Under the pieces are notes generated by a model that made no database searches, was not told the origin of the DNA, and saw nothing but the letters and a program-made list of their open reading frames with translations. Both the position numbers and the translations under genes were made by a program. A stretch of DNA of 64,000 bases, from the NCBI RefSeq assembly GCF_016097555.1, contig NC_054702.1, positions 68,138,463-68,202,462 on the forward strand, in the 5' to 3' direction. This stretch comes from Gigantopelta aegis. Lineage: Eukaryota; Mollusca; Gastropoda; Neomphalida; Peltospiridae. Every line of letters starts with the position of its first letter. The first letter of the stretch is position 1. Below, piece by piece: positions 1,918-63,321 of the stretch.

Positions 1918-1952
1918 AAAAGACCTCAGCACATGTTTGACTTTTCATTATC

Positions 1953-2640: not shown

Positions 2641-2748
2641 AACATGGCTGAATACATTCTAAAACATTACAATTATTTAAAACTGATGACGAATATTCAC
2701 GATTACCATATGAATCTGGGATTACTGAATGATATGAATGAAGAATAA

Positions 2749-3027: not shown

Positions 3028-3083
3028 ATAGGATGTCTGTCAAAAACCATCATCATTTGAGATAGAACCTTCAGAGGAGCAAC

Positions 3084-3482: not shown

Positions 3483-3520
3483 GATGGCTTCCTATATGAA
3501 TAAAGCTGAAGTAGAGGCCC

Positions 3521-6092: not shown

Positions 6093-6122
6093 TTTGACGA
6101 TGATTTGAAAATGCAGTGCTAT

Positions 6123-6989: not shown

Positions 6990-7046
6990 AGCGACAAATG
7001 TATCTACTAAACTAAACTACTTTGCAAATCACAACTATTTTTTTAG

Positions 7047-7424
7047 TGTGATCCTGATGTGACCCTGAGAGTGGCCCTGTGTGGCCCTGATGTGGCCCTG
7101 TGTGGCCCTGAGTGGCCCTGATGTGGCCCTGTGTGGCCCTGATGTGGCCCTGAGTGGCCCTGATGTGGCCCTGAGAGTGGCCCTGATGTGGCCCTGTGTG
7201 GCCCTGATGTGGCCCTGATGTGGCCCTGGTGTGGCCCTGAGAGTGGCCCTGAGAGTGGCCCTGAGAGTGGCCCTGATGTGGCCCTGTGTGTCCCTGATGT
7301 GGCCCTGTGTGGCCCTGAGAGTGGCCCTGTGTGGCCCTGAGAGTGGCCCTGTGGCCCTGATGTGGCCATGATGTGGCCCTGATGTGGCCCTGTGTGGCCC
7401 TGAGAGTGGCCCTGTGTGGCCCTC
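7047..7424. repeat. GGCCCTG minisatellite, ~30 units
   Basis: Tandem units GGCCCTGATGT, GGCCCTGTGT, GGCCCTGAGT and GGCCCTGAGAGT run for about 380 bp, each unit 10-13 bp. The minus strand contains no stop triplets in any frame across the array, so three overlapping GPHQGH-type frames stay open. The array begins about 60 bp upstream of the ATPase start codon. Confidence 0.95.
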
Positions 7425-7530
7425 TAACATATAAATGTGTCCTATGATATTTCTCTCCTGTTTGCCAGAGATATAAAAGTCCCTGTTGCCCCTTGTTCAC
7501 CACGTGGAGGTCGGAGAGATTCAAACAAGA

Positions 7531-7978
7531 TATACCAAATTTGATGTTTTTATGGAGAATGTAGTGGAGGGAAAATACCAAGTTTGATGTTTCATACCGA
7601 GTTTGATTTTGGGGAACATACCAAGTTTGATGAACTATGCCTATGATTGTTTTTTTTTTTTTTTTCCAAAACATTAGTTTGCAGCTTCCTCTTAAACACA
7701 ACTTGTTTGTGTCCAAGAGGTGAGTGGAGAGTGGGATAATGCATGGAGAATTTAGATTACTTATACACAAAATTTGAATAGCCGGCCTAAAATAACGGAG
7801 TATTGACTCCATAAATCACAAATGTATCGGACTATTTAAGAAAAAAAAATACAAAAGTGAATTTGAACTGCAATCAAACAAAGTCCGATAAAAAAAAAAG
7901 TTACAGTGTGGAGACTGATACCAAGTTTGATTTTGGGGAGATAAATACCAAGTTTGATGTTTCATACCGAGTTTGATG
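7531..7978. repeat. Dispersed TACCRAGTTTGAT motif, about seven copies
   Basis: Copies lie near 7533, 7576, 7595, 7618, 7918, 7946 and 7965, often as ATACCAAGTTTGATGTTTC followed by ATACCGAGTTTGAT. They form two clusters about 300 bp apart in the spacer between two leftward genes. Iteron-like spacing suggests a protein-binding array or the remains of an older tandem repeat. Confidence 0.75.
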
Positions 7979-7992
7979 ATTCATACAGAACT

Positions 7993-10900: not shown

Positions 10901-12814
10901 GTAATTCATCCTGATGGCATTCGAAATCGTAAAAAATGAATTTTGTGTGGACCTCAATGTGTTCTTTGGGAGGCTGGTAGCAAAGATGACCTTGGTCCAC
11001 ATAGTTGTTACAGCAGGGACATTTCCATTCCCCACAGGTGTGGAGTTTAGGATCCCTCTCGCTTCTGTCGAGCATCTTTTTGCAGATGGTACATTTCCAA
11101 AAACTCTCACACTTGGAGGGGATGGTGCGTCCTTTGTTGTCTTGCTTTTGTTGTTTGTGACGTTGAAAGCATTCCGGCGATCGACAGGTCACGTGGCAGT
11201 GACGACACGACATCTGGGCTTCGGTTTCGGGACAGTTCTGGCTATGACATACGATGCAGGTTAATGAGCACGAATGGTATAATTTGTTATTGTATGGTTT
11301 CAAACAATGTTGGCAAAAGTAGGATGCCGAAAAAAATCCAGTGATGTTGGCAATGGCGTGAAAATGGGGTGTTGGCTGCTCCACAAAATATAGAAAGAGT
11401 CTGGGTACCTGTGACATCTGGTCGCCCACTTCGGTACTGATCACGAGGATTTGGCATCCCAAGACTTGTTCAAAGGCAGGAATGTCATTCAAACTGCATG
11501 GACGATTGGTGGGTACTCCTGCCAGTGCACACAGTTTCAGTGCCAGTTTTTTCTGTTCTCCTCGATTCTTATTTCTTAAGTTTTGAAATATGATATTGGA
11601 CATTTCTTGTGATGCATGATCAAGTCGATGAGCGGTGTCTTGGGGTAAGGACCACCCACGAGCTCTTGCCAATCTTTGCTCGAGATGCAGTTCAGTTTGG
11701 CCCAGGCAACGCCGATGGCACGGGACATGCACAGGTCGTCGTCATTCACGATTTCGACTAGTGATCTTTTCATGTGAACCGAATTGTCAGGTCCACTGAG
11801 ATTGGTCAGTGTGACGTCAGATCTTCCGCCTCTCGGGATTTGTATGGTACCGACTTGAATGCTGAAAGATGTGTCCAGTGGTAAATCTTCGTTGCTCTGG
11901 AGTACTTTCTCGATGTGTCCCAAGATGACGTCAGCATTCAGTTCGGATAGCGGTTGTAGGGGTACGACGATCGGTGAATTCAGGGCATCGTGATGGACGA
12001 TCACACGTCCAAGGTCGCTGCCTTGTAGATCGATGGTGGCTTCTTTGAGAACGTCTTCAAACATGACATGCAGATCGTGGTGTAAATCTTTGAGTTTTTT
12101 CCCTTTCCACTGCTGGTCAAACTTTATGTGGTAGGTCGTGTCGACTGCCGATGTTTTCTTGTGCGTCCTCGTACCTTTCTTTGTAAATGCGTAGGGAGTA
12201 GATGGTGCTTCAGTGGTCACTGGAGCGGTAGCAGCAGCAACAGGACCGATCCCTCCAACTTGATTGATGGTACCCTGGCGTTTCAATGGTGGCTCTGACG
12301 ATGTAGATGGCAGTGGAGATGGTGTCGACGATGGTCTCTGTGCACACTGTAGTCTATGCTTCATTAGATCGGGCATTCTTCTGAACATGGCATTGCAAAA
12401 CGAACATGGCAGACCTTTTCCCTGTTTAACGTCGTCGGCTTCTTCAGAGGTAACCATAGGTTCTTCTGGTTGCCATTCCCCGTCGTCAATACAAATTCTG
12501 GCCAGTTCGTCATAGGATGGATTCCAATGTTCGTCACACAGTTTGATCAGGTCGTCGTATTCCTCAGGTGTTAATGGAGACCATAAGTCTTCGACCTCGA
12601 GGGCAGGAGGAGTCTCCAACGCAGTGGCTTCTTCTGATTGTTCCATCTCCATCGCAGCGGCTTCTTCTGATTGTTTAATTTCCTGACATAGTAGCTCTAC
12701 GAGTTTTAAATTCACGTATTCGTCGTTTTCCAGCCCATATTGCTTAGCCCAGGCAAGCAAGTCGTCGCTGCTCGTGAACGAATCCACCGTGGCGTTGATG
12801 GCAAAGCGATCCAT
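7993..12814 (-). CDS. Polinton protein-primed DNA polymerase B region
   Basis: The region covers the family B polymerase with its long N-terminal extension. In protein order: an N-terminal part with a C2H2-like finger (CSFCNAMFRRMPDLMKHRLQC), many CxxC pairs, exonuclease motifs (FYDFECHQDE, AHNNKAYDAYF, YCVSDVAVL), then polymerase motifs A (DFTSLYPWVN), B (KLCLNSFWGKYG) and C (YYDTDSVIF). An REELKVKGYKVIEIWEHE segment before the polymerase domain is also typical. This enzyme would copy the element with protein priming at the TIR ends. The region is broken as it stands. Confidence 0.9.
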
Positions 12815-15232: not shown

Positions 15233-17063
15233 CTATTCGTTGTCGCTTTCAGAGAACAAACTAGGTAACTCTGGTAAAGCTGGTGCACTTTTATCTTGCT
15301 GAACTTGTGCTGTTTCACCGGTCTTTTGTTCCTCTCGGTCATGAATTAACTCCAACTTCACACCTGCTGCAAAAGGAGTCGTATTTGAAATCACAACTGT
15401 TGCTTTTTGAAGTGGACCTCGTATGTTCTTATTTAGGAATATAATTGCATCTGCTGTTTTGGAATCGAGTACTGCTCGCTGTCTAGTTACGGTGAGACCT
15501 GCAGCAGAAAAGGCACGCTCGAATGGCACACTTGTACCGGGGATACAAAGGAATTGCTGTGCCAAGACTGCCATCCTTGGAAACGCAGACGCATTTTCTT
15601 TCCACCAAGCTAGCGTTCTAGACTTGAGGTGAGTGGGTGCTTGTACCTTGTTTGGTGCGCTGAGGAAGTCTAAATATTCCTGTCGTGCATCTCTGTCCAT
15701 TTCAGTTTCGTCTGATATCTCAATGATGTCTCCCATTAGAAAAGACATGGCACTTTCATTTTCACAGAATTTATATTTTTTCAGTGGTGGGCCTGATGAC
15801 TGGGGTTCTTCCTTGATATGGACAGAATCACTGGACAAGAGTGGATCCTCTGTGGTAGCATGAATTGGACTGTTTGTGTCTGGTCTGTTGTCAGTGTGTT
15901 CTTGCTGCTGCAACAGTTCTACCACATGGTCTTGTAGTTCTTCTCTCTGCTTGTCGGAGAGGAACCGTAGGTTCTTGTAGCATGGATCCACTGCAGTGGC
16001 AATCATAGAGGGTGTCATCCAGAAAGCATCTTTCAGAAGACGAGACTTAAGACCACTGGCAATGGTAGTCTTCATTTCGGCCACAACGTTTGTATCCAAC
16101 TCCAATACCACTAGATGTTTATTGATGAGGCCAAAAATGAGAGGGTACACACCAGATGAGGTGGGGAAGTCTTCACCGCATAATACCTCAGAGTCGCAGA
16201 GACAATTGGCTTGAGAGCAACAATCAACAATTCCATTATGGTCCAGTAGTTGTCTCTAAGGTTTAAGTCCTTGTGTTTTTTAAACATTTCATTATGCAGG
16301 ACAGCGACAATGTGAGTGTGCAGATCCGTCAAACGTTGTAGCATGAAATAGACGGAGTTCCAACGTGTCACTACGTCCGTAATTAACATGCTTAGTGGCT
16401 TTTCCGAGTTTCTTCTGGTGGTTTTCCAGTTCCTGTGTAGCAAGAGTAGATTTAGAAAAAAATGCCACAAGTTTGCGAGCATGCATTAGCATATTTTCAA
16501 TTGCTTTTATTTTTAGCCCATCTTGAACTCCAAGTTGGAGTGAGTGTGCAAAGCAGCGAATGTGTGGATATCCAGCTAACATTGCTGCAAGTGACATATT
16601 GCTAGCGTTGTCTGTAGTAAGACCAGCTATTTGTTTCAATGCCGAATTCCTCCTGGATGGATTTTAGAACAGTGGCAATGTTCTCGGCAGTGTGGCGTTC
16701 AGCAACATGACGCGTTGCAAGTATACATGATTCCAGTGACCAGTCTGTGAGATAATGTGCTGTCACTGTGATGTACCCTTGAGTGGCAACACTTGTCCAC
16801 ATGTCAGTGGTTAGAGCAACAAATGGAACTGACTGCAGTGTGGATTTGAGTTGTGCTTTGCAATCTTCAAACTCTTTAAATAAATAGTTGCGTAATGTAG
16901 TTGGACACAGGACTTGATAATTAGGGTTGAGTGCTTCGCAAAAATACACGAATCCTTTACCATTAACACTATTCAGTGGTCGCAAATCACGTACACACAT
17001 CATCATCGCCTTTTTTGTAACAGTTTCGTACCACTGCCTGTCTGCCGGTTTACGACTTTTCAC
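15233..17063 (-). pseudogene. hAT transposase (ZBED-like), broken
   Basis: The sequence reads through at least four overlapping pieces in different frames: 16602-17063, 16292-16639, 16111-16482 and 15233-16150. They show VALTTDMWTS, the GLTTDNASNM catalytic region, SHC/RWNSVYFMLQRL, and the C-terminal dimerisation block PGTSVPFERAFSAAG..TVTRQRA. The piece order matches ZBED1/4-like hAT transposases. At least three frame changes make it inactive as read. It starts only ~47 bp inside the right end, leaving no room for a BED finger or promoter, so its 5' part is probably lost. Confidence 0.88.
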
Positions 17064-40867: not shown

Positions 40868-43465
40868 AACCGTGAACCGGGCTAACCCATAAACCGGTCT
40901 ATTTACATCATGCTTGTTTTTAATGGATCTGCACGCGAGTGAACTTTGACATGTGAATAATTTTTGTTGAAGAAACCAAAACTTTACTGACAAATTGCAC
41001 AAATGAGGAAAAAACAGGTAAGATTTATTTTTTATGCACAATACAATGTACACAATATTAAAATATTTATATTATTAATACAAACCAGTATGCAAATAAA
41101 CAACAGGTCTCGAAGGTAGACGTCTGCTTTCACCTTTGGGTGAGGTCACGTGACCTACGTCATTCTTCCCAAGGAAAACAAACTATGGAAGCCCATACTG
41201 GCCACCATAATCAATGATTAAAATTAAGTTAATGTTAGCTGCCTGGAAAGCAGTTCAAAATGGCATGACAATATACAAGGCTTCAAAACATTTTGGCATA
41301 CCAAAATAAACACTTGGCAACCGAAAATCAGGAAAATTACATACCGGTAACCCCTAAAAAACTGGCAGCCAAAAACTTCCAAAATTTGAAAAGGTTAATG
41401 AGAAGAAGCTGGTTGCTCAAATAACCTATCTGGCTAGTTTAGGTTATGGGACTCAAGAGCAGAAGTGGTTATGTTAGTGACTGATTATGCCCATTTCTTG
41501 TCTGTTTTGCCACCTGATGGATGGTTGAACTGATTCTTTGATAGATGGCCTGAAATTCAGCTGATCCGACCAAGAAGCACAGAGTTATACAGAACAAATT
41601 GTGCCACACCTCTCCGAGATGAAAACTGTGATGGACAAGTACGATTTGCATTAAAAACTGCATTGTACTTACAATGTTGACGAGACTGGCATAAACACCA
41701 AGCATAAGCCTGGTGAGGTTGTGTCTAAAAAGGAGAAAACCTGCTGCCACTACAAGTTCCAGGTCTTCGTAAGTGACTGTCATCGCTTGTTGAAATGCAG
41801 TTGGCACAAATATTCCACCTTTTATTATTTTTAATGGAAAAAGAATGAATCCTGATTTATCACAAAAGTGCATACCCGGTACTGAAGTTCGTATCTCTGA
41901 GATAGGTTGGTCGAACAATGTTTCTATTCATGGATTTTATTCAGAATCACTTTGTAAAATTCACCATGGGCTCCGATTCAGATCACAAATTACTGCTCTA
42001 TGATGGCCATGCCAGCCATATAAATATTGCACTCAGAGTCATTCTGTTTGGCTTGCCTCCACACACCAGTAACCTGACCCAGCCATTGGATGTGGGTTGT
42101 TTCGGTCCATTCAAGCGGTATTTACATGCTGAGTGTGGTACCTTCATGAGGAGAAACATCACAGAGGCCATCACCAAGTATGACTTGGGTGAAATAGTCT
42201 GTAAGGTTTACCCAAAGGCTCTTTCACATCAGAACTTGGTGTCAAGTTTTTGCAAGACAGGCATCTACCCTTTCGATCTCAGTCATTGACAACAACCAGC
42301 TGTCTGTGTCATCAGTGTTCACTGGTAATTCTCCACACTGCAGACCAACAGACACAGACCTTTTTTTTATGCTAGAGACCCAATGAAAAACCTCCATAAT
42401 AAAACAACAAAGAAGCAGAAAGATAAAGTTGTAAAAACTGGAGGAACATCAGTGTCTAATTTTCCAATAGTGACACCAGCAGTGACATCGAGTTTAATGA
42501 TGAAGAAAAATGTTGTTTGTGGACTTTTCGAACCAGCACAGCTGAAAAATCTATGCTGTGTCAAACTGGTTAATTGGGCTCAGTGTGATGCTTACAGTCA
42601 TTGGGTGCAACTGAACTTTTGTGTTTCACAAAATGTTGTAAGATGCCACACAAAGTTGTTCTGCCCATACTGTCATTCAGATGAAGAATAGTTTACTTCT
42701 AACAACAGTGTAGTACTTTGTAAATATGTTCCTTTGTTACATTATTCACATTTTCAAGCATCTTCATAAATCAAGGCTAATATTCGTTCCTCGTATTCAG
42801 CCTTGATACATGTAGTCAAGATTACTGATATCCACTACTAGCGCCCTCTATTGGAAGAAAATTTGTAACACCGATTATGTCCCTTACACGATGACATCGC
42901 TGACCAATCACAGCATCGGTAACATGTGACAATCTTGAAAGCAATATCAAAAATTAACCGCTGGATGCTGACTCTGCCATCTTTGTTTGCAATAACAAGG
43001 GAATCTATAAGGAGCGTTGCGATTCGTTGCAATCAGATCTCATCGCATCCAATGAAATTTAAGCATTTTGTGGCACGATTTCTTGACATGTATCAAGGCT
43101 GAATACGAGGAACGAATATTAGCCTTGATTTATGAAGATGATTTTCAAGTTGACAAACTGTTGTTTTTAAAGTACTTTTCCAATGATGACCGATATTATC
43201 TACAATACTTTTTGCGATGCCGTAAATAGACTGGTTTACACATTTAGCAGTAGTCTGCTTTTAGAGAGGACCTGGAAAATGTTAACATTCAACTATGGCA
43301 TGCATTTCATCTATCTACAAGCTGTAATGGTAAGATTGTGAAAATTATATTGCTTGATTTCTATAGTAACTTAAATAATGTAAAATATTAATTCTTCAAA
43401 TTGATTGTGTGATTACAATGCGTGTGTGTAGAAGTCATTTTCTGTTAATAGCCCGGTTCACGGTT
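40868..43465 (+). mobile_element. Decayed pogo/Tigger-like DNA transposon with PHD-type finger
   Basis: The ends are AACCGTGAACCGGGCTA (40868-40884) and its exact inverse (43449-43465). Broken + strand coding runs from about 41220: a psq-like start (TIYKASKHFGIPK), YNVDETGINTKHKP with the first catalytic aspartate near 41670, then LLLYDGHASHINI and SNLTQPLDVGCFGPFKRYL in one open frame (41918-42289). A last frame (42383-42691) ends with a cysteine-rich WAQCDAYSHWVQLNFC..CPYCH finger, like the PHD fingers of this transposase group. Several stops and frame changes disable it. A MITE is inserted near its 3' end. The TA duplication expected for this group is not clear on the left. Confidence 0.75.
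42759..43140. mobile_element. MITE with perfect 55-bp TIRs and 9-bp duplication
   Basis: The left arm (42759-42813) begins CATCTTCATAAATCAAGGCT. The right arm (43086-43140) is its exact inverse over all 55 bp. ATTTTCAAG flanks the element on both sides (42750-42758 and 43141-43149). A 9-bp duplication with long TIRs suits Mutator-like elements; Merlin is an alternative. The 382-bp element has no coding capacity. Identical arms point to a recent insertion into the older Tigger-like element. Confidence 0.92.
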
Positions 43466-44392: not shown

Positions 44393-44467
44393 TTAAGAAC
44401 TTTCATCAAACAGACTCTTCATATCTGCAAATGCCTTGATGAGATTGTTCCCAAACTGGTTAGCATT
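44393..44467 (-). CDS. CPT1: CPT1 last exon with stop
   Basis: Encodes [24 protein letters not shown] in one run, then TAA (44393-44395). The acceptor is CTTCAACAG. It matches the C-terminal helix of CPT1. Confidence 0.88.
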   Translation of the reverse strand, partial: NANQFGNNLIKAFADMKSLFDESS

Positions 44468-47319
44468 CTGTTGAAGAAAAATTGATCACTGATAAAAGAG
44501 CACCAACAAGAACTATTAAGTGGACATGAGGCTATTATGTTATTGACTAGTCAGGTTCGACTGTTTGTGAGTGAATGTGTGTAGAATGTTGGGTGGACCT
44601 AACACTTATAGTATTTGAGAAACAACAATTAACATAGCCATAAATGCAAGTTCAGACCTGTAGATAAGTCTAAAAATATAGCGGGATGGTGGTGGTGGTG
44701 GGGGGGGGGGGGGGGGGGAGAAAAAATAATGAGGGAATTGTAAAATAGGGTCTTCTCTAGTTAAATATAAGGAGATTTTTGGAGATGGTTCTGCCCCTTA
44801 CACAGCTCCCCACCCTCACTGCCAGATACAGCTCTGAAAATGCTGGAATTGTTTCTATTGGTTACAAAATGGAATTAAAAGGTCTTAATTTCAAAAATAC
44901 AGAATTAATGTTTATAAATATAGAAGTAAAAAATTATGCCATAAGAATGGGTTAATTTGGAGGGTCTGCCATGTATGGGGGTCAGAGAGGGAGAAATGTT
45001 ATTTCAAACACTCTGGTCTGAGCAAATAAATCTGTTATTAAAGAATCACCATCCATCAATATGTAATTGGGGAAACAACACTGACGAATAAATAACATAA
45101 TTATTATATATTTGATTTGAATACTGTGAATGCTATCAACACAAATGGGTTGCAGATAATGATAAAAGAAATATATAAATATTATATATCCAGTAACAAC
45201 AGGCTATTCATTGCTAACTACAAGTTTCAAATATATTTTTATTATTTAGCAATTTAGAAAACGTCATTCACATATACATGTACATTAGATGAATTTCATA
45301 ATCCAGCTTATTTTTAAAACACAATTTTAATATTTGCCATTTCAACTTCTCCATTATTCAGTGATAAAATTAATTAAAACCATTGAGGTTATTAAAACTG
45401 CAATTATGTTTGTATTTTGCATTAGTAAACAGCATTATCAGATTCAAAGGGGGAAGAGATGGGGTGGGGATGGAGAAGGATGGTTACAGCTCTAAAATAT
45501 TTTTCAGACAGTGTTTGATAAGAATCACTCACTGTGGTTGAGCATGATTTTTTGCAAGAGATATGAAAGAAGACTGTGTCTTCACCAGCCACAATGTAGG
45601 ACACCCCATAACCATCGTCAGCAACCTGCAACACAAAATAATATAACATAAAATGATTAAAAACCAGATAAAACAAAACACTCAATTTATTATATCTGTT
45701 TCACCCTGAATTTTACTGTATCATAACCATAATTGATCAGTTCATTCAATATGTTAAACCAAACTAAACATTCACAAATCCTATCTTAATTACCCATTTA
45801 TAAGCAGAGAACAGACTAACTTATTTTATTTTTAATTTTGGCTGAAGTAACTCAAAAGTTCCAGTAAATACTAGAGACAAATGACAGTAAAATAGGTAAA
45901 CTTGGTTAAAATCTTAAATTTGGAATAAATGAATACAACATCCCATTAAAAATTTAAAAATCTTAATGGTAAACTCATACTACAATATAAGGCTATATTA
46001 ACTTACTGGACCAAATCCACCACCGCCACATATTCGATTTGGGTATTTTTCAATGTCGAGTCTTTGTGCTTGCTGGTGAGGTGTCTGAAATTAAACAAGC
46101 AGGTTTATATACTACCAGACTGGGTACAACTCAAATAAAGTAAGTGAAAAACAGAAATGCATGAAAACAATCCAGCAAAATCAAATTAATGACAAAGTTT
46201 CCACAAGGAGAGAAATGATATCGTGCAGTGATGTAAAAGCAAATAAATTAATGACAAGTAACATGTATTGGAACTGTAACTAATTTGCAGCTTTGTTCAT
46301 AAAAATGCAAACACAAATTTAATTCACATTTTGTCTGCCAAAAAGACTGAATAATATGATTTAGACTTTAAATTTCTCACAATGATAAGACAAAATTTAT
46401 GTTAGATAAACCAAATAGTTTTTTGGGGGTTGGGTGGTGGTGGGGATGGTGGTGGGGCTTTGTTTGGTATTGGGGGAGGAGGTGCCTGCTCTTTTAATAA
46501 TTATGGCCATTCATATTGACTTAAATTGATAACAAATATACAGTGGGTTTTTTGGTATCACAGAATTCGCCATGAGCAAAATTAAGGCAAGCCGAAGATC
46601 ACTCTTCTGAAATGTTGCCACGTGAGCAATCACATGCAGTTTCAAAAATAATTTATTACAAATATTTGCAGCTCTCCTAAAATGTTCTAGGCGAGTGTGG
46701 AGGGGAGCAAGAGTAATCACTCGTCTTTCCTTGTGAAGACAAGTTAGCAATATTCAACAGTATTTATAAGCTGTAATAAGATAGATATAATGTGTAGGAA
46801 GGTATTTCACACAAAAAACTCTCGACTAAACTAACAGAAAAAACTGGAGCAAAGAAAAAAGACATCCGTACCAAGCCAGCAAAGGAGAAACAGGCCTCTG
46901 AAAATTGCAAGAATGGTTGTTTCATTTGCACAAATCCATTTATCTTTGTCATCTATCACCCTCTGCCTACCATTCTCATTATCTTAATATAAAAAACTTT
47001 CCAATTTACTCCTGCAAATTTTTTATAACCTATTTTTGTGTGTGTAAAATTTCTAGCACCATTTAAATGGATGTAACAGATTACGCAAAAAGAAAATAGG
47101 TTACATAGATTTATTTCTGCATAACCGACAAATGGGTTACACAGATTTTCAATTCTCAGGCCCGACAAAGAAGGAAGTGTCAGTCACGTGACCAGAACAG
47201 GAAGTAAAGGACTCATTGGCAAATTTTTAGCCATCCCATTGGCTGTTGGGATGTGGGATGTTCGGACCAGACTACTATCCCTACTATCCTGTTTGAGGTT
47301 AGGTTAAGTAGAAAAACAA

Positions 47320-47352
<33 letters not shown>

Positions 47353-50300
47353 AATATATATATATATATATATTTAAAAAAAAAAATTACTAAGTCAACT
47401 GTTTCTCTTCAGTGGTACTCTGAACTAAAAATCTTCTGACTGACTTACCTGACTTGTAGACAGTCTCCATGGTTCACTGAGCACCTCAGAGAGGAACGGC
47501 GAATCCAGACCCAGGTACTTCTCCACCACGTACAGACAGAAGAGGTGGCGGTCAATGCCAAGTCCAGTCATTGCCTCGCGGTATGCCCTCTGGTGGCAGT
47601 CTGCTGCTATCTGCATCAGCTTGATACTCTCGGCATTCTACAACAACAACAAAATGATACAAAACCCCACAATAGTAAAGTTTGTTTGCAAGCCTCTGGC
47701 GAGCATAATACATTATTTTTATTCCTAATATATGATATTGACGATACCAAAATACACGAGGGTAATAATCTCTTTATCATATAAGCTCAAGGTTAATACA
47801 TGTTTTTGTAAACTGTACATGCAACTTTAATTCCAGTCCGCCATTACTAGATATTCAAATGACGTAAGAATATGTGGTGCGGTGTATTTTTGAATGGAAA
47901 TGATGTCAAACTCGAATGACGTCATTTTGGATGTCCTTACATCAAAATAAAGTTATGCCTAACGTTTTTTGTTTTCTGAATGCTGGACAGCTTTCAGTGT
48001 CAAACTGCCATTGAAATGTTTTTATTTGACGACGTCATACGTCAATCATGGAGTGTCACCCAAGTACGTCTGCTTAAATGTCAATAAACCTAGTGCCGAG
48101 ATCTCGAGTAATTTACATCTAATTTGCTAAGTTATCAAATTCTTAAACTATGTGATCTGAAAAATATTATACTTTGATTGCACTGAAAATGTAAGATATT
48201 ATATGATAAATATATATATATTATATAGTTGTAAATATCTGAATAAGATTATAACAGAGATAACAAAAGTTTGTGATACCTAAGTGGGATTATACCATCC
48301 AAAAATAGACTGGAGCTTGTCTGGATAACCATTACTTTTCAGACGCACTTAAGGTGTACAAAATTAATAATAAAGTGTAAGTACTTCTAATTTAAATGAT
48401 CAAAAAATGACATTAATAGTGAAACATATATGTCGTAGTGATTAAAAACTAGCGTCTGTCGCTTTAACTGTTTATTTACTATAAATCTGGAGCCTTGAGA
48501 AACTTCAACTTACAGTTTTTTTGGGGTCATCCATGGACCTGACAAAAGCACACGATTCAGCAGTGCAGGATCTCACAGTCTCCGTGCGGCCCTCTCGGAA
48601 CAGTCGAGTCATTGAAGACTCGTAGGTGAGGCAGAATTTACCTTCAGACTGGAAAACACACACACACACACACAAACAAAAGTTACTTTCTTGTACTAAT
48701 AGCAAAAAAAAAGAAAGAAGAAAAAGAAGAAAAAAAAAAGAGAAAAAAAGACACCACCCACCCAAAATTAAGCAGTTGCAGCTTTAATAAACATTGTCAA
48801 GAATTTTGTATCATAGAAACTTTAAATTGGCTATTGTCAAAACCATATAAAAATATGGTTACTTTTCCCTGATCAATTTTCCCCTGATGTTATGGCAATT
48901 GCTCCTTTATCAGGATTTTGTTTAACTTTCTACATTACTGTTATCTAATCGCGGCAGAGAGGCGAGTGTCAACATTTTTATTAACTTATCCTTATTTGGA
49001 AAATTTGTATAGCGTACACACGTATGCATTGGTACTTCCAATTATATTTTAATTTTTAGTTGTTCTCTGGACAGAGATGAGGAGGAATTATCCTCACGTG
49101 TGTGTGTGTGTGTGGGTGGTGTGTGGTGTGTCTGTGCGGTGTGTGTGTGTGTGCATATGCGGTGTGTGTTTGTAGGCCTGTGTACATACATGAGTGTGTA
49201 CACGTGTGGGAAAGAAAGAATGTTTTATTCAATGACGCACTCAACTCATTTTATTTACGGTTATATGGCGTCAGACATATGGTTAAGGACCACACAGATA
49301 TTGACAGAGGAAACCCGCTGTCGCCACTTCATGGGCTACTCTTTTCGATTAGCAGCAAGGGATCTTTTATATGCCCTATATCACAGACAGGATAGTACAT
49401 ACCACGACCTTTGATATACCAGTGGTGGTGCACTGGCTGGAACGAGAAATAGCCCAATGGGTCCACCGACGGGGATTGATCCCACACCGACCACACATCG
49501 AGTGAGCGCTTTACCACTGGGCTATGTCCCGCCCCCTATGTGTGTGGGAATGCACAAGATTCCATGTTCTAACTATAGTCTTGAATGCACTTACTCTGTA
49601 GTAAGTCAGTTGAAGGGCCATCTGTATGAATGCATCTGGACTGACTTTACATTTCTTCATGAATCTCTTTCCATAGTAAGTATACATCATCACATGGAGA
49701 TCCACATCATTGATCAGCTGTCTAGCAACAGACAGGCTCTTTGTTATTACGTATAGGCACTGTTAAAGAGTGAACAATTAAACATCATGTCACAATGTAT
49801 ATTCAGTAACTATATAAATACAGATAAAAACAAACATGTACAGCTACTATATAACATACCAATAATCTGGCACCCTACATGACCCTTCCCATACGTGTAA
49901 TCATCAAAGAAAGATTTCAAGAATCATAGCAGAATTTTGTAGCATTTTTTTTTTATGAGGAACTATATATTTCCTATACTGATCTATATTAAGCTGCTAA
50001 AGGAAGTAATCACACAACAAGTGGTGGTGTGGTGCCTTTATTTTTCTTCTTTGTTTTTAAACAATAAAACAAAAAAAACATTCTCAATATGCATGACTTC
50101 TGCCTGACTTTCAAGCAATGAAGTTGTGTTTAGAGAGCGTGGAGATTTCTCTCCCCCCCACCCTAGGGGCTGTGCTCCGGTCGCTTGGGCCATTGTCCAA
50201 GTACTGGATTGAGCACAATGGCGACTCGGCGACCGTCACGCTATTATACGGCAGTGACAGGAAGCAAGCTACAACCAGCAGAAGACGGAGGAGGCGACCC

Positions 50301-53300
50301 AAGTCTTCGCAGAGGGTACCTAACTTGGCGGCTCAACCGCCAAGGGCGGTCCCACCTGTCCCGAAGAGGAGAACGAGACCAGGAGCGGCGCAGGGTGAAC
50401 CAAACCCGGTGGCTCAACCACCGGGGGCGGTTCATTCTGCTCAACCAAGTTTACCTGCTCGATCGAAGCACTCGCCAGGAAAGACCCAGGGGGGACCAAA
50501 GCTGTCAGCTCCACTGACAGTGGCGGCCCCTTCTGTCGATCTACCGAGTACCATGGACACGGGCCACGTGGTCATTGATGAGCCACCGGCAAGTCCACCA
50601 CTACCTCCGGTAGTTGTTGAAACCACGGCGGTCCAGCGAGAATTCAAGAAGAGGAAGATGTCATCGACCACCATACCGATGACGTCTGATGAATCCGATT
50701 GGATTCTCGTTTGTGACAGACTGCCAACGAAATACACGGGGGCGGTTATCGGTGACTTCACCGATAACAAACATCTAAAGGGACCTTGGGACGACAAGCA
50801 CTGGCGCCAACTTCCATCCGGACAAGGGAAGTACCAGCTACAAGGTGCCCTAAACTCCGACAAACTTTATGTGACAGCTCAGCAGGAAGGACTGTACAGG
50901 CAGGGGCTCCTGATGCCATCGATGTCAAACGGGACCATCCACCGCATCTTAAAGATGGTTCTACGAGACATCTACCCAGGAGCCATCGACCGCAACATCC
51001 AGGTCTTGACCGAAGGACTCCCCAACTTCAAGCCTGAACAGTCCATCAACTCGCCATGAATCCTGCTGCGCCAACCTTAACTAGGACAGGTAACCTCCTT
51101 TTTGGGCTTAGTTGGACTTTAAACACGTTTTGATCGACCTTCCAAATTCTTATGTTTATTTTTTTATAAACAGTCCAACGCATTTTACTTTGGCGCCCGT
51201 TCAATTGCTCAAATCACCTTAAAACCTTTTCGGCCGAGCAATCAAACTTATTTTTGGGTTTAAATTCTTAGTCCGGACATGATGTTAGGTGCAGTTAGTC
51301 TCCGTAGACTTAGGTTTTTCTAGTTAGATCCGAAGGAATCGAAATTCAGCCAGTCAGAACACGGCCCATTTTCGGTGTCTACTAGTCAGTCCGCGCAGTC
51401 GCTGGACGCTACTAAATACTTATTCAAAATTCTGCCCACTTCAAACTCATCCCCCCCCCCTTGTCCTGGACTTAGTCACTGGCAAAGGCCAGAGATTAAG
51501 CCCAGGACAGGCGTGCGTGAAACCTTCGTGGTATATATGCACGAAAAAGTTTTAAACAACAACAATCAATATGCATTTGGATGAACTTTGTTGATGCAGA
51601 ATGCTTATGATTGTAAATCTAAAATGTCTATTAAAAACAACAGGTATTTTTCATCTGCCAACATACGACCCGTCCCGCTATTGCATTTTGCTGCCCTCCT
51701 TTCACGTTCTCCGCCCTCCTTTATTTTTCTGCACACCCTCTTTATTTTCACACACCCTACTATATTTTACAGATCCTATCTCCGCTATTTCCAAATGTAC
51801 ATTTTTTTCCACATCTAAAAAAAACCCAAAAAACTTATCAGTCTGCACACTGGATATCAAAGGAAACAAGCTGCGTTGTGTGTACGGAAAAGCAACTGAT
51901 GAAAAATTCACGACAGTTACCGCAATGTAATTTAACAGTATTTTTAACAGCCTCTATTTTGTCCCATACCTGTATCCATTTGTATGTTTAATACAAACAA
52001 TAAAAGTTATATTTTATTTGAGCAATGAAATCATTTTCTTTTTTATGGATTCGGCACAATCGATTGAAAACCCCCACTTATTTGGCGCCAAATTTGTCAC
52101 GTAATCATTCTGTCTTTTGTTTCCACTATCGTCTGATATTTTGTCCTCAATTGCAGATATAATTGGTTGTAACTGATGATTTTTACTTTCTGTCATTTCT
52201 GTCATTCTGTTTATTCAGCAATTCTTTATAAAATATTATAAACTTTTCATTTTGGGGGATATCACTGCTTATAAAAACAACAGAAGTGATAGTGTTTATC
52301 ATTAAAATAATTTATATTGGGTGCCAAATAATATATACACCGCCTTTACAAAAACGAAAATACTTTTTATCAACTGGCGATAATATTTTATCACAGTGAT
52401 TGATTCATTCAATGAAGATGGAAATAACAAAAAATGTATCCGACATTAGGGGATCACTTTACAAACATCTTTATTGTTTTTCGTATATCTTGAAATCTTT
52501 ATTAAAATAATAACGTTAAAACTTTAATCAGTTCAGCAAAACCAGAACTGCCCGTGAAGTCAGACCGACAACATCTTCGGTTCAACTGTATTTCGTATAA
52601 ACTTTTTTGTAGGCAAAATAAGGAGTATGTCTTTCCACAAAGTCAGCCAACACACAACCAATATGGTAACCAAGCTCCCACAGACCCCTTTTTTCTTTTT
52701 CTTTTTGCTTTTCGGTTTTTTGGGGTTTTTTTTTTGAAGGGTGTGGTACCACACGGCCGCCCTCCTTTAATTTTTACCCAGCAAGAACACTGTCATTTGT
52801 AGATTTTGACAACTACTGCTGCCACCACTTTCACCTACTTTTCATACTTACAATAATGATACAACTCACTGAACTCGGTAGATATTGGCCACCTACTTTT
52901 CTCAAACAGCCTTCTCAGTGTTTACCATGAACAAAATCAAAACGAGCTTAGGATCTCTCTCCTAAAATGGTGCTAGGTTAGCAATCACATGAAGTTTTAA
53001 TAAAATGGTGCTAGCTTAGCAATCACATGAACTTTTAATAAAATGTATTTAAAATTTTACTGCAAACCAATCACTTTTTTGCTCTCCTAAAAGTTTTTCA
53101 GGCTAGTGTTTGATGGGTGTGGGTGTGATCACTAGTTTTTTCTGGCGAAGACTGCTTCTACCTTCAAAGGTAATGAACCCCTCCCCGATTACAGCTGAAC
53201 GTTTGGTTTAAACGGACTACATACTGGTGAAGGAAGGTCCCATTCCAGTCTTATTGGATTTGGTACTTGATCAGATAGTTTGCCACTGCAGTGCCCATCA

Positions 53301-55941
53301 GCTGTGTATCTGGTGTGGAAAAAAACAATTACATGTAGTGATAAAATGAAGACTTTTTCTTCCGTTATTACATTTTATAAAGTGCACTGCAAACAGTAGA
53401 ACATAATAATTTATATACTGTTAACTTTGCTTCATTTGCTGAGAGGGAGTATCTAGTACATGTATGCTAATTATTAATTAAGTAAACAAAGTTAAAGTAT
53501 CCCTTGCTGCTAAAGTGAATTTTTTTTAGACTTTATGTCAAAAACTACCCAATGTCCAATAGCTGATGATTAATATAATAAATCAATGTGCTCTAGTGGT
53601 GGGTAAACAAAACAAAATTTAAACTTTAACATGCAGTAAAAGTTATAATATACATGTATCATAACAACTTGGGGGAAAAAGATGATTCAGAACTATTGAC
53701 TCAAAAAGCTAAAAACTTAAATAATATATATTATATTAAGCATGATGTTTGCCTTTATCAACAATCAAAGCTACATGATCAATATCAATACAAGTATATA
53801 TATATATATATACTTAACTCCAAAAGAAACGCGAAAATTTTAAAATATTAAAAAACCCACATTTGAATAAACTATGTACAAATTGATTAAGTTGACCAAT
53901 AGCCATCTTGTCAGCGTACCCAATTCCACATAACGCATGAAAAAAACGAGTACAGTGTGACGTCACGCACGTGCTGAAATTGACGACCAAAATCGATCTG
54001 GAATGCAAAACGGGTGGATCATGAAAGATGCGAATTGCACGTGAAACACTACCAGGCCTGGGTATAAAAGAAACGCCAGACAGCAATGTTCAACTCATTT
54101 TACGAGTAGCGATACAACGATGCCACGACTTAACGCTGATTCCAGACATAGAGCTTTGGGGAATTTGGAGGCCGGAATGGATGCCAGGCAGGTTGCACGT
54201 GCTTTCGGTGTCCATGTCTCGACAATCTACCGTCTCATAGACCGATTTCTACAAAACAACAACGTCGTCGACCGTCCACGTAGCGGCCGTCCCAGCGCCA
54301 GGACCGTTACATCATCCGAACTCACATGCGTGATCGGTTCGTACCAGCCACCACAACAGCCCGGCAGACAGTGGGAACCCACAACCGCCCCGTTTCCTAC
54401 ACCACGGTACGACGTCGTCTGATCGCCATCCATCTGAACTGTCGTCGACCGTACATTGGACAACGTCTCACACAGCGACACCGCCTTGCACGACACAACT
54501 GGGCTGTTCTGCATCGACAGTGGCGGAACCGACAGTGGCAGAACATCGTCTTCTCTGACGAAAGCCGCTACTGCTTAGATAGGGCCGACGGTCGTATGAG
54601 GGTGTGGAGGCGTCGAGGTGAGCGCTTCACAGATGTGTGTGTTATGGAGAGGGACCGTTGGGGAGGGCCTTCCGTCATGCTGTGGGGTGCCATATCCTGG
54701 GGACGTCGTGTACAACCTGTCATCTTCGACAACAACGGCCGAGGACGCGGCAGGGGCATCACAGCACAGCGCTACATCGACGAAGTGCTCACGCCTGTGG
54801 TGGTGCCTTTTTTCGCGGGTCACCGTCAGATGGTTTACCAGCACGACAACGCCAGGCCACACACGGCACGGGCCACCCAGGCATTCCTGGCACAGCACAA
54901 CATCATCACAATGGACTGGCCAGCTTTAAGCCCGGATCTGAACCCCATCGAGCACTTGTGGGACGAGGTTCAGCGCATGATGAACCAACGCCCCTGCTCC
55001 CGTGGTGACACAGCAGCAGCTCCGCCAGGCCGTCGTGGACACCTACAACAACGTGCCCAGGGCCTTCATCAGGAACCTCTTCCTCTCCATGGGTAGGAGG
55101 TGTGCGGCGGTCATGGCCAGCAATGGCGGACACACCCGCTATTAGTGGACATGTTTGAGTGGCATGTGACGCCATTGAAGAAGCGCCATGGCCTTGACAT
55201 TTCAAATGACAATGCGACCTCGATTTTTAACATGTCAATAACATGAAATCTCATCTTTACGAATTGTTTAAGTTTTTCATAGAAACGATTATTTTAAGAA
55301 CTTTGGGACGTATTTCAATGAGTGCACTCAAAACCTCCAATCTACGTATTCGCGTTTCTTTTGGAGTTAAGTATATATATAATGTAGATTGGTCATGCCA
55401 AAAACCCCAACAAAAACCAACAATGACCCACCAACCACCACCCCATTATTGAATTTAAAAAAATAGGTTATGCAAAACGAGACCTGCACAAGCAAGAGGC
55501 AAACAAAGTTTATCATTACTGCATTTTTTAGAAGCTGTTACGTTAAAGCTTGACCAAAACAGGTAAAATTAATGCTTGCATAAAACTAATGATTTACTTC
55601 ATCATTTAAGGCACACTAGGTGCAGTATATGTACTGTAAAAATTTAAAAATGCATTAATAATGTTAATTCACATTGCAAATGGTTAGAATAACAAATAAC
55701 ATAATTATATACAATCCAGTAAATGAATTTGCTGTGTGTAAAAGATGAAAATGTGCCAGTATTTTAATTTTAACAACCACTAATATAACCCATATTAATC
55801 ATCACCCATGCTAATATAATTTAAGCACCTCACAATTCATCTAAACTTTGAATAAGTATAAAACTGTTTACATCATGGAACTATTAAAATATAATTTTTT
55901 AGATTCCATTAGGTGGACACACACACACACTCACAAATACT

Positions 55942-58900: not shown

Positions 58901-61606
58901 GAGAATAGAAGAGAGGAAGGTGTTGAAGAAACAAAGAATAAATAGCAAATTATATTATGCATGATGTGCATTTGAATGTATATACCTGTACTAAGTATAT
59001 TGTCTCTTTTACATAGATTGTGTTATTGTTATATTTTATATTTTAAGGCTTATAGATTCTTTCTTTCACTATTGTTTACTTGTACTGGGTTATGGAATAA
59101 ACCAAGCATCATTTGAACCAGCAGTTGTGTCTACTTAATCTACACACAAAAAACACCTGCTACACAAACATACAGTCCCTGAATTTAGTTCACTGCAAGT
59201 TTATTTGGTGGTTTTGTTTTTTTCCTACTGGAGTTTTATTTATTTAAATGCGACACGATATATTCACAACAGGATATTTATGTGCATTACCTGTTTTATT
59301 ACACATTACACATTTTTTGCATTAATATCCTGGTTCGCATTAGCATACAGACGCTGACATATTCAACAAAAAAAAAAAAAGGTTTTAAAAAAAGGTACCA
59401 TATTTAATATGTAATTTTAGTGGTTAAAAAGGCTCCATCAGTCGGAACATGGTACGATGCAGCAAACAGTCTCTTAACAGGTTACGACTCAGTACTTTGA
59501 TGTAATGCAATGATCAGTTGTTCTGTTTTGACATTTATTCCGAGGGCCGCTAGCTCACAAACTACAAACGCATTACCTAGTGGGTATCCCATCTTCCTCC
59601 ATCATGTACTCCCAAAAGTGAGCCATGATTGGCCCATCAGCCCTGTTATTACAAACAACATACAAGATGAAACACATGGAATGAGCTGCACGTGGGATGA
59701 ACCAAAACAATGCAAACAAATGATACATGCTTAACATAACAAAATCAAAATGGGTGCACAAAAATTAAATAAAATGAAAATTTGTCACTACAAAAACAAT
59801 TTTACTTTGTTTTCTGTTGCTTATAGCCAAATAATTTATAAATTGTATGTTTACGTTCATTAATAAATGTTTTTGTAAGTATTATTAAGTGAACTTTTGC
59901 AATATATAAACTTTCTATTTGTTTTGTCTTTTAAGAGCTTCCCATAACCAACATTTTGTTTTTTTTAAATTTGAAGTTCACAGATTTCCCCCCCCCCACC
60001 CCAAAACTTAGGAACATGTAAATATTAGACTCTTTTTATTTTTAATATGCTAAATGTTGATTACTTTAAAACAACATATTTAAAACAAATATTTTTGTAG
60101 TGACACAGTTTGAGAAATTCTGAACATAGTTACTGGAATCCATGCATGTTAGAATAGTTAGTCAAATCAAGAAATAGCCATGCAAAAGCTGAAGAACATG
60201 TCTGAAATCTATGCTGTATATCAACTGGTCTTCATACATACTCCAGTTTTTAACAGTTGACAGTGAATGGTGGCAAACTAGTACAGTTTAGGGCTATCTC
60301 TGGCACTCACCAAATTTGCAAACTGCAAATTTTAAAAACTGGTGAATTTTATTTTAATTATACGATCACATTTTCTGTTAATAATTATTAGAAAATAATT
60401 AGGTTTTTGAACTTTGAGCTAGCTGAAACTGGCTTAATGGTAACCTACCTGTACAGAACAGCCACCTGACCATAACGGCAGAACTTGTCTTGGAAATGTT
60501 TATAGGTTAGGTGAGTTGTAGTTTACATCTTTAATAGCCACTGGAACTTAACATTGTAGAAGTTAGGGAAATAGCTTTGTACAGATTTGACTTAACAGGA
60601 ATTATAATTCCTTTAAAGTTGAAAACCCTAAATGTAGTTTTTTAAACACTACGGCATATTTTTCAATATTAGAGCCGTTATTTATAACGCAATCAGACAT
60701 TACTTGGATTTTATTGTTTAGATTATAGATTTTCGTACATCCAAAGTGTTTCTGGTCATCCTGGTGTTTCTAATACACAAAATACATTTTTCATTTTTAA
60801 AAAACATGTGTGTACCTCTAAGAAGTAAGAGTTATGGAGATGAACTCTAGTTTATTTTAAAGAGTATTTCTCCATTTCAATGTCATAGACTCTTGTTTTA
60901 GCCTATTGTAACTTAGTGTGTGTGTTTGTGTGGGTGGGAGATATGTGTACCTCAGTGGTAAAGCATTTGCCTCATGTGCAGTCGGTTTGGGCCCATTGGG
61001 CTATTTCTCATTCCAGCCACTGCACCATGACTAGTACATGTATATCAAAGGCTGTGGTATGTGCTATCCTGTCTGTAGGATGGTGCTGTGACAACAGTAA
61101 TCACTCCATTATTTAACATACATAGCAGTTTAATAGTAGCTATAAAACATTTATTACTATCTGTATTTTCTTTTCCAATACGCTAAAAGGCTGTGTGTCA
61201 AAAAACAATCACTTTTGTAAGGCCCTGTGGTTAGCCGTTTTATACAGGATTGATTGTACTTATAAAAAAAGATAAACTGTCAGACTTTTAGCCATTACTG
61301 TCATATAGCTATAATGTTAATATATGGCAAACATGTACATGTATATTACTTAATTTTAACTTTCACGGTGAATATATATAGTATGTAGTTGTTGTGATCA
61401 AATTGTGTCAACATATAGTGATATACAGCATAAATTCCAGCTACTGTTTAATATTATGACCATGTTAGCAGTCATGAACCAAAAGCAGTTCTAGCAGAGA
61501 AAACGTTTGATCCACCATACAACAAAAACCTATAAGTTACCCTAGCTCTTGAAACTCCCGACTTAACGCACACTCCCACATATGGGCCATTATGGGTGCA
61601 TCTGCC
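44393..61606 (-). CDS. CPT1: Carnitine palmitoyltransferase 1, 3' part of gene
   Basis: CPT1 sits in the mitochondrial outer membrane and moves long-chain acyl groups from CoA to carnitine, the controlled step of fatty-acid oxidation. The window holds eight exon positions: 61541-61606 or 59577-59642 (alternatives), 53225-53309, 49595-49759, 48514-48648, 47449-47637, 46007-46084, 45533-45625 and 44393-44467. Together they encode about 294 residues, close to the vertebrate length from just after the catalytic histidine to the stop. Key motifs: [56 protein letters not shown], the [17 protein letters not shown] block, [13 protein letters not shown] (STS carnitine site) and [19 protein letters not shown]1 rather than CPT2 or CROT is indicated by [22 protein letters not shown] and the C-terminal layout. 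The first half of the gene, with the membrane segments and catalytic HSW, lies beyond the right edge. Confidence 0.96.
45533..45625 (-). CDS. CPT1: CPT1 exon ([11 protein letters not shown])
   Basis: 31 codons, phase 0 at both ends. Encodes [16 protein letters not shown] and [13 protein letters not shown]. Acceptor GTGTTGCAG, donor GTGAGT. Reading past the donor gives an unrelated tail, which supports ending here and using the exon at 44393. Confidence 0.9.
46007..46084 (-). CDS. CPT1: CPT1 exon (ICGGGGFGP)
   Basis: 26 codons, phase 0. Encodes [18 protein letters not shown] then CGGGGFGP, the glycine-rich loop before VADDGYG. Acceptor TTAATTTCAG, donor GTAAGT. Confidence 0.92.
46616..46743. 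repeat. Dispersed repeat in a CPT1 intron
   Basis: GAGCAATCACATGCAGTTT, GCTCTCCTAAAATGTTCTAG, GAGTAATCACTCGTC and GTGAAGAC recur in the same order in another CPT1 intron at 52971-53150. Confidence 0.6.
47340..47390. repeat. A-rich and (TA)n tract
   Basis: (AAT)n, an A run, (TA)n and another A run lie in a CPT1 intron just downstream of the exon at 47449. Confidence 0.9.
47449..47637 (-). CDS. CPT1: CPT1 exon with STS motif
   Basis: 63 codons, phase 0. Encodes [20 protein letters not shown], then [18 protein letters not shown], then [13 protein letters not shown]. The serine-threonine-serine contacts carnitine in this enzyme family. Acceptor GTTGTTGTAG, donor GTAAGT. Confidence 0.96.
48514..48648 (-). 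CDS. CPT1: CPT1 exon ([17 protein letters not shown])
   Basis: 45 codons, phase 0. Encodes [40 protein letters not shown] and DPKKT. This is the most conserved stretch of the family. Acceptor TGTTTTCCAG, donor GTAAGT. Confidence 0.96.
49211..49537 (-). repeat. Full-length SINE in a CPT1 intron
   Basis: Inverse of the copy at 33181-33502, with the same head (GGGGGCGGGACATAGCCCAG) and the same TTATTTAACA-type tail read on +. It lies between the CPT1 exons at 48648 and 49595, in the same direction as the gene. Confidence 0.9.
49595..49759 (-). CDS. CPT1: CPT1 exon ([17 protein letters not shown])
   Basis: 55 codons, phase 0. Starts [20 protein letters not shown] and ends [20 protein letters not shown] plus R. 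Acceptor TCTTTAACAG, donor GTAAGT. Confidence 0.93.
50118..51059 (+). CDS. Unidentified intronless ORF, 313 aa, probably transposon-derived
   Basis: A 942-bp open frame, GC-richer than its surroundings, antisense within a CPT1 intron. Residues 1-60 look partly structured ([19 protein letters not shown]). Residues 50-190 are a basic, proline-rich linker with repeated [16 protein letters not shown] phrases. Residues 195-313 look folded: [61 protein letters not shown] do not recognise it. Sequence downstream (51461-51545) resembles the tail of a SINE at 29385, so it may be the first ORF of a LINE whose main ORF is missing. A host retrogene is the alternative. Confidence 0.5.
   Translation: MKLCLESVEISLPPTLGAVLRSLGPLSKYWIEHNGDSATVTLLYGSDRKQATTSRRRRRRPKSSQRVPNLAAQPPRAVPPVPKRRTRPGAAQGEPNPVAQPPGAVHSAQPSLPARSKHSPGKTQGGPKLSAPLTVAAPSVDLPSTMDTGHVVIDEPPASPPLPPVVVETTAVQREFKKRKMSSTTIPMTSDESDWILVCDRLPTKYTGAVIGDFTDNKHLKGPWDDKHWRQLPSGQGKYQLQGALNSDKLYVTAQQEGLYRQGLLMPSMSNGTIHRILKMVLRDIYPGAIDRNIQVLTEGLPNFKPEQSINSP
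51060..52960. other. CPT1 intron sequence downstream of the ORF
   Basis: 51060-51560 probably belongs to the same element as the ORF. At 51461, TTGTCCTGGAC and GCCCAGGACAGGCGTGCGTG are followed by a TATATATGCACG end. Beyond that no gene is recognised. Confidence 0.45.
52971..53150. repeat. Dispersed repeat with tandem start, CPT1 intron
   Basis: A ~39-bp unit (GGTGCTAGSTTAGCAATCAC plus ATGAASTTTTAATAAAAT) occurs twice in a row, then TTGCTCTCCTAAAAG, GGCTAGTGT and a GATCACTAG..GCGAAGAC end. The order matches 46616-46743. Confidence 0.6.
53225..53309 (-). CDS. CPT1: CPT1 exon ([11 protein letters not shown])
   Basis: 85 bp: one base completing a split codon, then 28 codons ending in phase 0. 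Encodes [20 protein letters not shown] then LEWDLPSP, matching YTEEGHC..RLQWDIP of vertebrate CPT1. Acceptor TTCCACACCAG, donor GTATGT. Its entry phase fits both alternative upstream exons. Confidence 0.93.
53496..53618 (+). repeat. SINE tail copy in a CPT1 intron
   Basis: AGTATCCCTTGCTGCTAAAG, CAATGTCCAATAGCTGATGA and a GGTAAACAAAACAAAATTT end. It is 5'-truncated, with the second SINE tail type. Confidence 0.7.
53811..55372 (+). mobile_element. Tc1-like DNA transposon
   Basis: The ends are TACTTAACTCCAAAAGAAAC and its exact inverse, about 25 bp each, flanked by TA-rich sequence so the TA duplication cannot be pinned to one site. Length is ~1.56 kb, typical of Tc1. It carries one transposase gene on the + strand and lies in a CPT1 intron, antisense to the gene. 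Confidence 0.93.
54120..55143 (+). pseudogene. Tc1-type DD34E transposase, frameshifted
   Basis: The N-terminal frame (54120-54422) has paired helix-turn-helix sequence: [31 protein letters not shown]. The catalytic frame (54326-55096) has [11 protein letters not shown] (first D), [12 protein letters not shown] (second D) and [13 protein letters not shown] (E), with 34 residues between the second D and the E. The coding shifts frame once between the DNA-binding and catalytic parts and again near 55000, where the true end ([20 protein letters not shown], stop at 55143) lies in another frame. It is therefore inactive but young-looking. Confidence 0.92.
55373..59576. other. CPT1 intron sequence
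   Basis: Part of the 6.3-kb intron between the exon at 53309 and alternative exon B. AT-rich with a (CA)n tract at 55917-55995. Two open frames at 57110-57516 on opposite strands show no recognised protein. Confidence 0.5.
55917..55995. repeat. (CA)n microsatellite
   Basis: Interrupted ACACAC runs of ~80 bp. Confidence 0.95.
59577..59642 (-). CDS. CPT1: CPT1 alternative exon B ([14 protein letters not shown])
   Basis: 66 bp: G, 21 codons, AG. With TG from the previous exon it gives W, then [21 protein letters not shown] and R with the next exon. Acceptor TTGTAATAACAG, donor GTAATG. Size and phases equal exon A. It is closer to vertebrate CPT1 at WEYMM but ends IPTR instead of FQLG. Confidence 0.88.
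60945..61086 (+). repeat. SINE copy, 3'-truncated and decayed
   Basis: TACCTCAGTGGTAAAGCATT then TGCCTCATGTGCAGTCGGTT matches the head of the SINE at 33181 with a gap, followed by GGGCCCATTGGGCTATTTCT and GTGGTATGTGCTATCCTGTC. It lies in the intron between alternative exons A and B. Confidence 0.75.
61541..61606 (-). CDS. CPT1: CPT1 alternative exon A ([14 protein letters not shown])
   Basis: 66 bp: G, 21 codons, GG. With TG from the previous exon it gives W, then [21 protein letters not shown] and G with the next exon. Acceptor TTACTGCAAACAG, donor GTAACT. It is closer to vertebrate CPT1 at ADAPIM and at its FQ.LG end. Splicing A to B would shift the frame: 66 bp is a multiple of three, but it would insert a second copy of the segment, so joint use is unlikely. 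Confidence 0.88.
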
Positions 61607-62800: not shown

Positions 62801-63284
62801 TATGCATATTCTGTGCGCATGTTTGAAAGAAGGAAAAAATAACTTTGTCATTAGGTATCAACATTATGGTAATTGTGAAAATTGTCCTCCTTTTAGAGAA
62901 GAAACCATCTGCCACCTGGAACCACACTGTCTAGCTTACCAAACAGCAGCAAGGGATTGCAAAGTTTGAAGAAATTATCTGCCAAACTAGAATCTATAGG
63001 GGCTGGGGTAGATTATTTATCACATGATTATTATCTTTTGTATAATCCGTGTTTTACAATACTTCCAATAAACTGCAGTTACAATTAATAATAATACTTT
63101 TTTAAAATTCAAACAAAACCAAAAAACTAACACATACCTGGTCCAATATTTTACAATCTTTAGTTATATGGAATAAAAGTCTGTTTAAAATACCTACTTG
63201 TGTATATATATACATGTATATATATACATATATACACAAGTAGGCATTTTAAACAGACTTTTATTCCATATAACTAAAGATTGT

Positions 63285-63321
<37 letters not shown>

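Follow-up and report, generated by a model that had tools for sequence, protein, structure and literature searches.

The window analyzed here, the whole 64,000-nucleotide stretch examined (contig NC_054702.1 of assembly GCF_016097555.1, forward-strand positions 68,138,463 to 68,202,462), comes from the deep-sea vent snail Gigantopelta aegis. It contains, on the minus strand from 61606 to 44393, the 3' part of a gene for carnitine O-palmitoyltransferase 1 (CPT1), the enzyme that admits fats to mitochondria and serves as the control point for their oxidation there. This part comprises two homologous exons, here called A and B, followed by six common internal exons and the last coding exon. The pair is probably a tandemly duplicated exon whose copies are used alternatively. 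The downstream exons were found in order by tblastn with human CPT1A, which served as query and for residue numbering. The first common exon after the pair (53225..53309, minus strand) was read by tblastn and translation across the splice join. The five that follow on the same strand, found by tblastn and translation, lie at 49595..49759 (CLYVITKSL...LTYYR), 48514..48648, 47449..47637 (...LSTSQ), 46007..46084 and 45533..45625. The last coding exon with its stop (44393..44467, minus strand) was identified by translation, and its product equals the C-terminus, the final 24 residues, of the public protein P0001. The gene's whole downstream part, to the stop at 44393, therefore lies inside the window, which corrects an earlier note made on this DNA from the letters alone. 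P0001, whose cluster holds two sequences, is annotated as isoform X2 of carnitine O-palmitoyltransferase 1 from Gigantopelta aegis. It carries both CPT1 domains, Carn_acyltransf (PF00755, 625 bits) and the CPT1 N-terminal domain (PF16484, 81 bits), the N-terminal part of the protein being encoded outside the window. The B form, read from its alternative exon as far as 45533, matches it with 100% identity over 271 residues; in this query two bases were added by hand, those that start the initial Trp codon and belong to an exon outside the window.

Exon A (proximal, 61606-61541, minus strand) lies between the acceptor ...caaacag and the donor gtaact, while exon B (distal, 59642-59577, minus strand), the copy present in isoform X2, has the donor gtaatg. 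Each has an ag acceptor and a gt donor and measures 66 bp, that is 1 nt, 21 codons and 2 nt, making them adjacent homologous exons of compatible phase over 66/66 bp. The intron between them (59643..61540, minus strand) has a computed length of 1,898 nt. Either exon is accepted in frame by the exon at 53309-53225 (...G/R-YTADGHC). With 9 of 21 full codons and 32 of 66 nt in common, A and B appear to be old duplicates. A motif search in both strands and all frames of the 64-kb window gave no third copy. These data bear out the earlier note in its coordinates, the 66-bp size and identical phase (by splice-site and frame check), the fit of both exons to the YTADGHC exon, and the assignment to a molluscan CPT1, the last through the identity with P0001. 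The note had also placed the segment right after the catalytic histidine. Here the AlphaFold2 model of P0001, built with 33 sequences, agrees, as it predicts a strand at 465-469, then the catalytic H471, then a helix at 476-490 inside the exon; the histidine itself is encoded further upstream, by an exon for which the window gave no match: no frame contains an EHSW-like motif, and human residues 440-475 have no tblastn match apart from the A/B pair.

The same exon is doubled in other animals. Our sample of 128 CPT1 proteins was not random: it consists of the best 120 of 3,562 hits, ranked by similarity to the Gigantopelta B form, and eight more from a search directed at tandem models. Residues were scored in 142 exon copies from 127 of the 128 proteins, P0122 having failed the pattern and been dropped; as this pattern clipped some segments after position 486, lengths from that scoring were not used. 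In 15 gene models the two exons directly follow one another, with W|AD and |Y junctions that are the same throughout. Eight are among the best 120 (Lingula, Paralvinella, Mercenaria, Lymnaea, Biomphalaria, Petrolisthes, Oratosquilla and Trinorchestia) and seven among the eight from the directed search (six bees and Diabrotica). By group there are one brachiopod, one annelid, three molluscs, three crustaceans, six bees and one beetle, so that a private molluscan invention is ruled out by the tandem models in other phyla. The duplicated exon thus lies at the insect-type boundaries, seven of the 15 models being from insects. The pairs were deduced on the reasoning that a gene yielding a protein model with both copies must contain the two exons at these borders, even if the modeled message is a prediction error. 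Named CPT1 isoforms already exist in the public annotation of many of these animals. One further candidate, P0065, had looked like a cephalopod protein carrying the arthropod-type ADAA exon; since it matches arthropod proteins best, it was set aside. In the neogastropod Babylonia areolata, P0008 and P0022 fall into two separate CPT1 clusters, from contigs that differ in length, with exon segments of 22 and 21 residues, which may hint at a gene duplication in neogastropods.

The earlier note had proposed either an ancient protostome arrangement or a second origin. The same boundaries enclose two copies in molluscs, a brachiopod, an annelid, crustaceans and insects, so the arrangement may well predate the split of molluscs and arthropods; these shared borders favor one old duplication, which the exon sequences themselves do not confirm. 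The competing explanation that survives best, and a possible one although we do not prefer it, is that this small, symmetric and easily swapped exon was duplicated independently in arthropods and lophotrochozoans, perhaps several times. The identical boundaries argue against it, and several results that weigh against a single old pair argue for it. For the pairing comparison and the exon tree 11 of 16 pairs were used. When the score of first-with-first plus second-with-second exons was set against the crossed score, for six lophotrochozoan and five arthropod pairs, matched pairing won 16 of 30 comparisons, no better than chance. It won 15 of 20 when Lingula, Paralvinella, Lymnaea and Biomphalaria were compared with the five arthropods, comparisons that are not independent of each other; with Mercenaria it won 1 of 5, the outcome predicted by a swapped exon order. 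Both figures can be set against independent duplications, the latter if the order in Mercenaria was indeed swapped. For Gigantopelta, however, matched pairing won 0 of 5, a result that argues against a simple orthology between its exons and those of insects. The exon tree of 23 rows is mostly unresolved, having too few columns: neither a first-exon clade (approximately unbiased test, AU, p 0.645) nor an all-arthropod clade (AU p 0.579) is rejected.

Exon length and order also vary, as separate duplications would allow. The first and second copies have 22 and 22 residues in Gigantopelta, 22 and 21 in Lingula, and 21 and 22 in Mercenaria, where the 21-residue copy precedes the other; the order is opposite in Lingula, Paralvinella, Lymnaea and Biomphalaria. 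Within a gene, the two copies resemble each other more closely in crustaceans (BLOSUM scores 74-77) than in bees (44-46). The Diabrotica model has two identical copies, from a recent copying or a model error, and is weak evidence for that reason. Gene conversion is likewise possible in the history of A and B. Of the note's two suggestions the old arrangement is thus the favored one, through the shared boundaries, while one-to-one descent of A and B from the insect exons is not supported by the exon sequences as a whole. The alignment it had proposed, looking for A and B clades older than the species splits, gave common boundaries and a tree that does not separate such clades.

The exon corresponds to human residues 476-497 and includes Ala478, Pro479, His483 and Leu484. 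Exon A keeps Ala478, Pro479 and His483, three residues presumably linked to malonyl-CoA inhibition in mammalian CPT1A. Exon B has Gly at position 478, the only such case in the 142 exon copies, the other 141 having Ala; a second pattern counted 143 copies, again with one Gly. In alignments of PDB chains the equivalent residue is Gly in CrAT (EHAAAEGPP) and CPT2 (EHSWGDGV) and Ala in COT (HAPYDAM). Malonyl-CoA does not inhibit CPT2 or CrAT and does inhibit COT. Since B carries Gly478 as the insensitive CPT2 and CrAT do, it should be less inhibited. Morillas et al. (2002) reportedly found that liver CPT1 mutated at Ala478 or His483, or COT mutated at Ala332, was less sensitive to malonyl-CoA. 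A search for B-like CPT1 gave four proteins from six candidates, with Gly478 in P0001 only, a candidate step too narrow to establish that the residue is unique.

In the tandem models His483 is kept in all 15 first exons and lost in eight of the 15 second exons (two pulmonate snails and six bees), the rows among bees and among pulmonates being non-independent. Two observations speak against a clean pattern of loss in second exons. His483 is also missing in 11 of 112 single-copy segments, which may be first or second exons and include four from bryozoans or bryozoan-like animals, and Pro479 is replaced by Ala in arthropod first exons (10/10). The two exons differ at 478, 479 or 483 in 9 of 12 pairs (12 of the 16 pairs were used here). 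Neighboring positions differ within pairs too, 480 in 6/12 and 482 in 7/12, and the difference at 478, 479 and 483 is therefore a pattern to test and no proof.

Several points weigh against an effect of the exon on inhibition by malonyl-CoA. Inhibition of CPT1 also depends on its N-terminus. The P0001 model has a mean predicted local distance difference test score (pLDDT) of 81.7, with local means of 84 at residues 481-500 and 65 at residues 471-480, and is thus lowest where it matters. Two substitutions within the exon, P479L and L484P, are listed among human CPT1A deficiency mutations, which counts in favor of the explanation preferred here, but excerpts of PMC10076611 tie the former to lowered activity and the latter to stability, neither to malonyl-CoA. 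The malonyl-CoA difference between the isoforms that had been suggested from the sequence alone has thus gained residue-level support, in the form of Gly478 in B.

It seems improbable that one of the two exons, B or else A, is a duplicate in decay or a cassette spliced in by chance, with no function of its own. Such a reading would account for the long branch of exon B in the exon tree (0.87) and for the change at a residue that is otherwise always Ala. Exon B is nevertheless open, has clean splice sites, is used in the public P0001 and keeps A474, D475, W483 and E484 (P0001 numbering), the positions of the exon that are invariant across 33 aligned CPT1 proteins. Exon A, for its part, finds its best match among the 11 pairs in the first exon of Lymnaea (score 85).

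Each mature message would be expected to take either A or B, and P0001 is a public protein with B only. The donors fit such a choice: neither gtaact of A nor gtaatg of B has G at +5, which is present in 6/6 downstream CPT1 donors of the window, and donors of this kind suit weak, regulated 5' splice sites. Strict exclusivity, on the other hand, has several points against it. As the exons are symmetric, a message with both or with neither stays in frame, so that frame does not enforce exclusivity, and both exons have GT-AG borders. The 1,898-nt intron appears too long for steric exclusion. The longest exact Watson-Crick stretches between introns, 12 and 15 nt, were exceeded in 40 letter shuffles (maxima 14 and 16), and a 22-nt complementary match is a TA microsatellite. 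No exclusion by frame, steric hindrance, a mix with the minor spliceosome or RNA pairing was thus found at the locus. Many real mutually exclusive pairs have no recognizable exclusion mechanism, and this is not disqualifying. The tandem models in other animals may reflect occasional inclusion of both exons, or annotation errors. Constitutive use of A and B together in a longer CPT1 would match the 15 models holding both, four of them bee models named isoform X1, but it is very doubtful, as the other 112 of 127 readable models, including Gigantopelta P0001, have a single copy, and a protein with two copies of the helix behind the catalytic histidine would probably not fold properly.

The explanation we favor, and hold to be the probable one, is therefore that the CPT1 gene of Gigantopelta aegis carries a tandem exon duplication whose copies are used alternatively. 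The choice between A and B would swap the helix after the catalytic histidine (human 476-497) and leave the remaining enzyme unchanged. Form A would be a normally inhibited CPT1, and form B a CPT1 less sensitive to malonyl-CoA that might sustain fat burning at high malonyl-CoA. Both the site of the exon and its duplication look old and may well be older than the split of molluscs and arthropods, the copies having presumably diverged or been overwritten separately in each lineage. A bolder proposal, which we put forward tentatively, is that exon choice in Gigantopelta is one between a malonyl-CoA-inhibited and an insensitive enzyme, and that second exons of an old pair repeatedly altered this site, which would make the pair an ancient bypass, controlled by splicing, around the chief brake on fat burning.

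Putative mobile elements lie in introns of the gene and elsewhere in the window. The intron upstream of exon A has a 46-nt exact inverted repeat (63146-63291) resembling a miniature inverted-repeat transposable element, and the intron between exon B and the next exon harbors, on the opposite strand, an open reading frame (ORF) for a Tc3-like transposase (54284-55096, plus strand; PF13358, PF01498). About 2 kb past the CPT1 stop there is a DDE_1 transposase fragment (41906-42286, plus strand; PF03184), and a hAT transposase C-terminal dimerization domain is encoded at 15236-16255 (minus strand; PF05699). An integrase core ORF (844-1677, plus strand; PF00665) and two DNA polymerase B pieces (9396-11741 and 8328-9392, minus strand; PF03175) suggest that 844-11741 is a Polinton-like or virus-like integrated element. 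Within it the ORFs at 3515-4783 (plus strand) and 6126-7016 (minus strand) had no Pfam match. A stretch of repetitive ORFs in the same element contains a match to the Rfam HDV-like ribozyme RF02682 (7452-7529, minus strand), which at 44.2 bits against a gathering score of 44 may be due to chance.

The closest known system is the insect CPT1 (whd) pair. Price et al. (2010, J Biol Chem 285:7857) are said to have described an alternative exon pair in insect CPT1 for a 21-residue stretch after the catalytic histidine; gene and place are the same as in Gigantopelta, where one short exon would likewise be swapped by splicing. To our knowledge, kinetic differences between CPT1 isoforms from such an exon pair are known only from Drosophila. 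There whd has two isoforms produced by alternative splicing, which differ in activation and inhibition kinetics according to excerpts of PMC7767417, and the insect precedent that the earlier note had named is thus real. The bee tandem models share their exon boundaries with Gigantopelta. They differ from it in sequence: in all six the first exon has ADAA and the second ADAP, and the second has Ser or Thr in place of His483, whereas both Gigantopelta exons have AD[A/G]P and 66 bp, with Gly478 in B. The insect-type pair is already known, and other invertebrates apparently share it, judging from the gene models. Among the matches listed from the open-licence literature, outside which most subscription journals lie, there was no report of a CPT1 exon pair in molluscs, annelids, brachiopods or crustaceans, and a term search of the main text of the Gigantopelta hologenome paper (PMC7895826) gave no occurrence of carnitine, CPT1 or fatty acid.

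Outside CPT1, the exon 11 copies of the Na+/K+ ATPase in barnacles and other arthropods are mutually exclusive exons, according to excerpts of PMC3793950. The Gigantopelta pair resembles them in having tandem homologous exons of equal phase, of which one would be chosen, and it differs from mutually exclusive pairs in general in that exclusion by frame, steric hindrance or RNA pairing was not found. If molluscs, brachiopods, annelids and arthropods all share the pair, control of CPT1 by splicing would be an old protostome feature. Natural A/B pairs would then be a ready-made mutant series for the malonyl-CoA site, in which exon B of Gigantopelta singles out one residue; its single-residue change would deserve attention as a variant, should the predicted behavior of the enzyme hold. 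Vertebrates also have CPT1 forms that differ in their response to malonyl-CoA and substrate, namely CPT1A, CPT1B and CPT1C, but these are separate genes with no swapped exon. The brake on CPT1 is thus varied by separate genes in vertebrates and by exon choice in insects.

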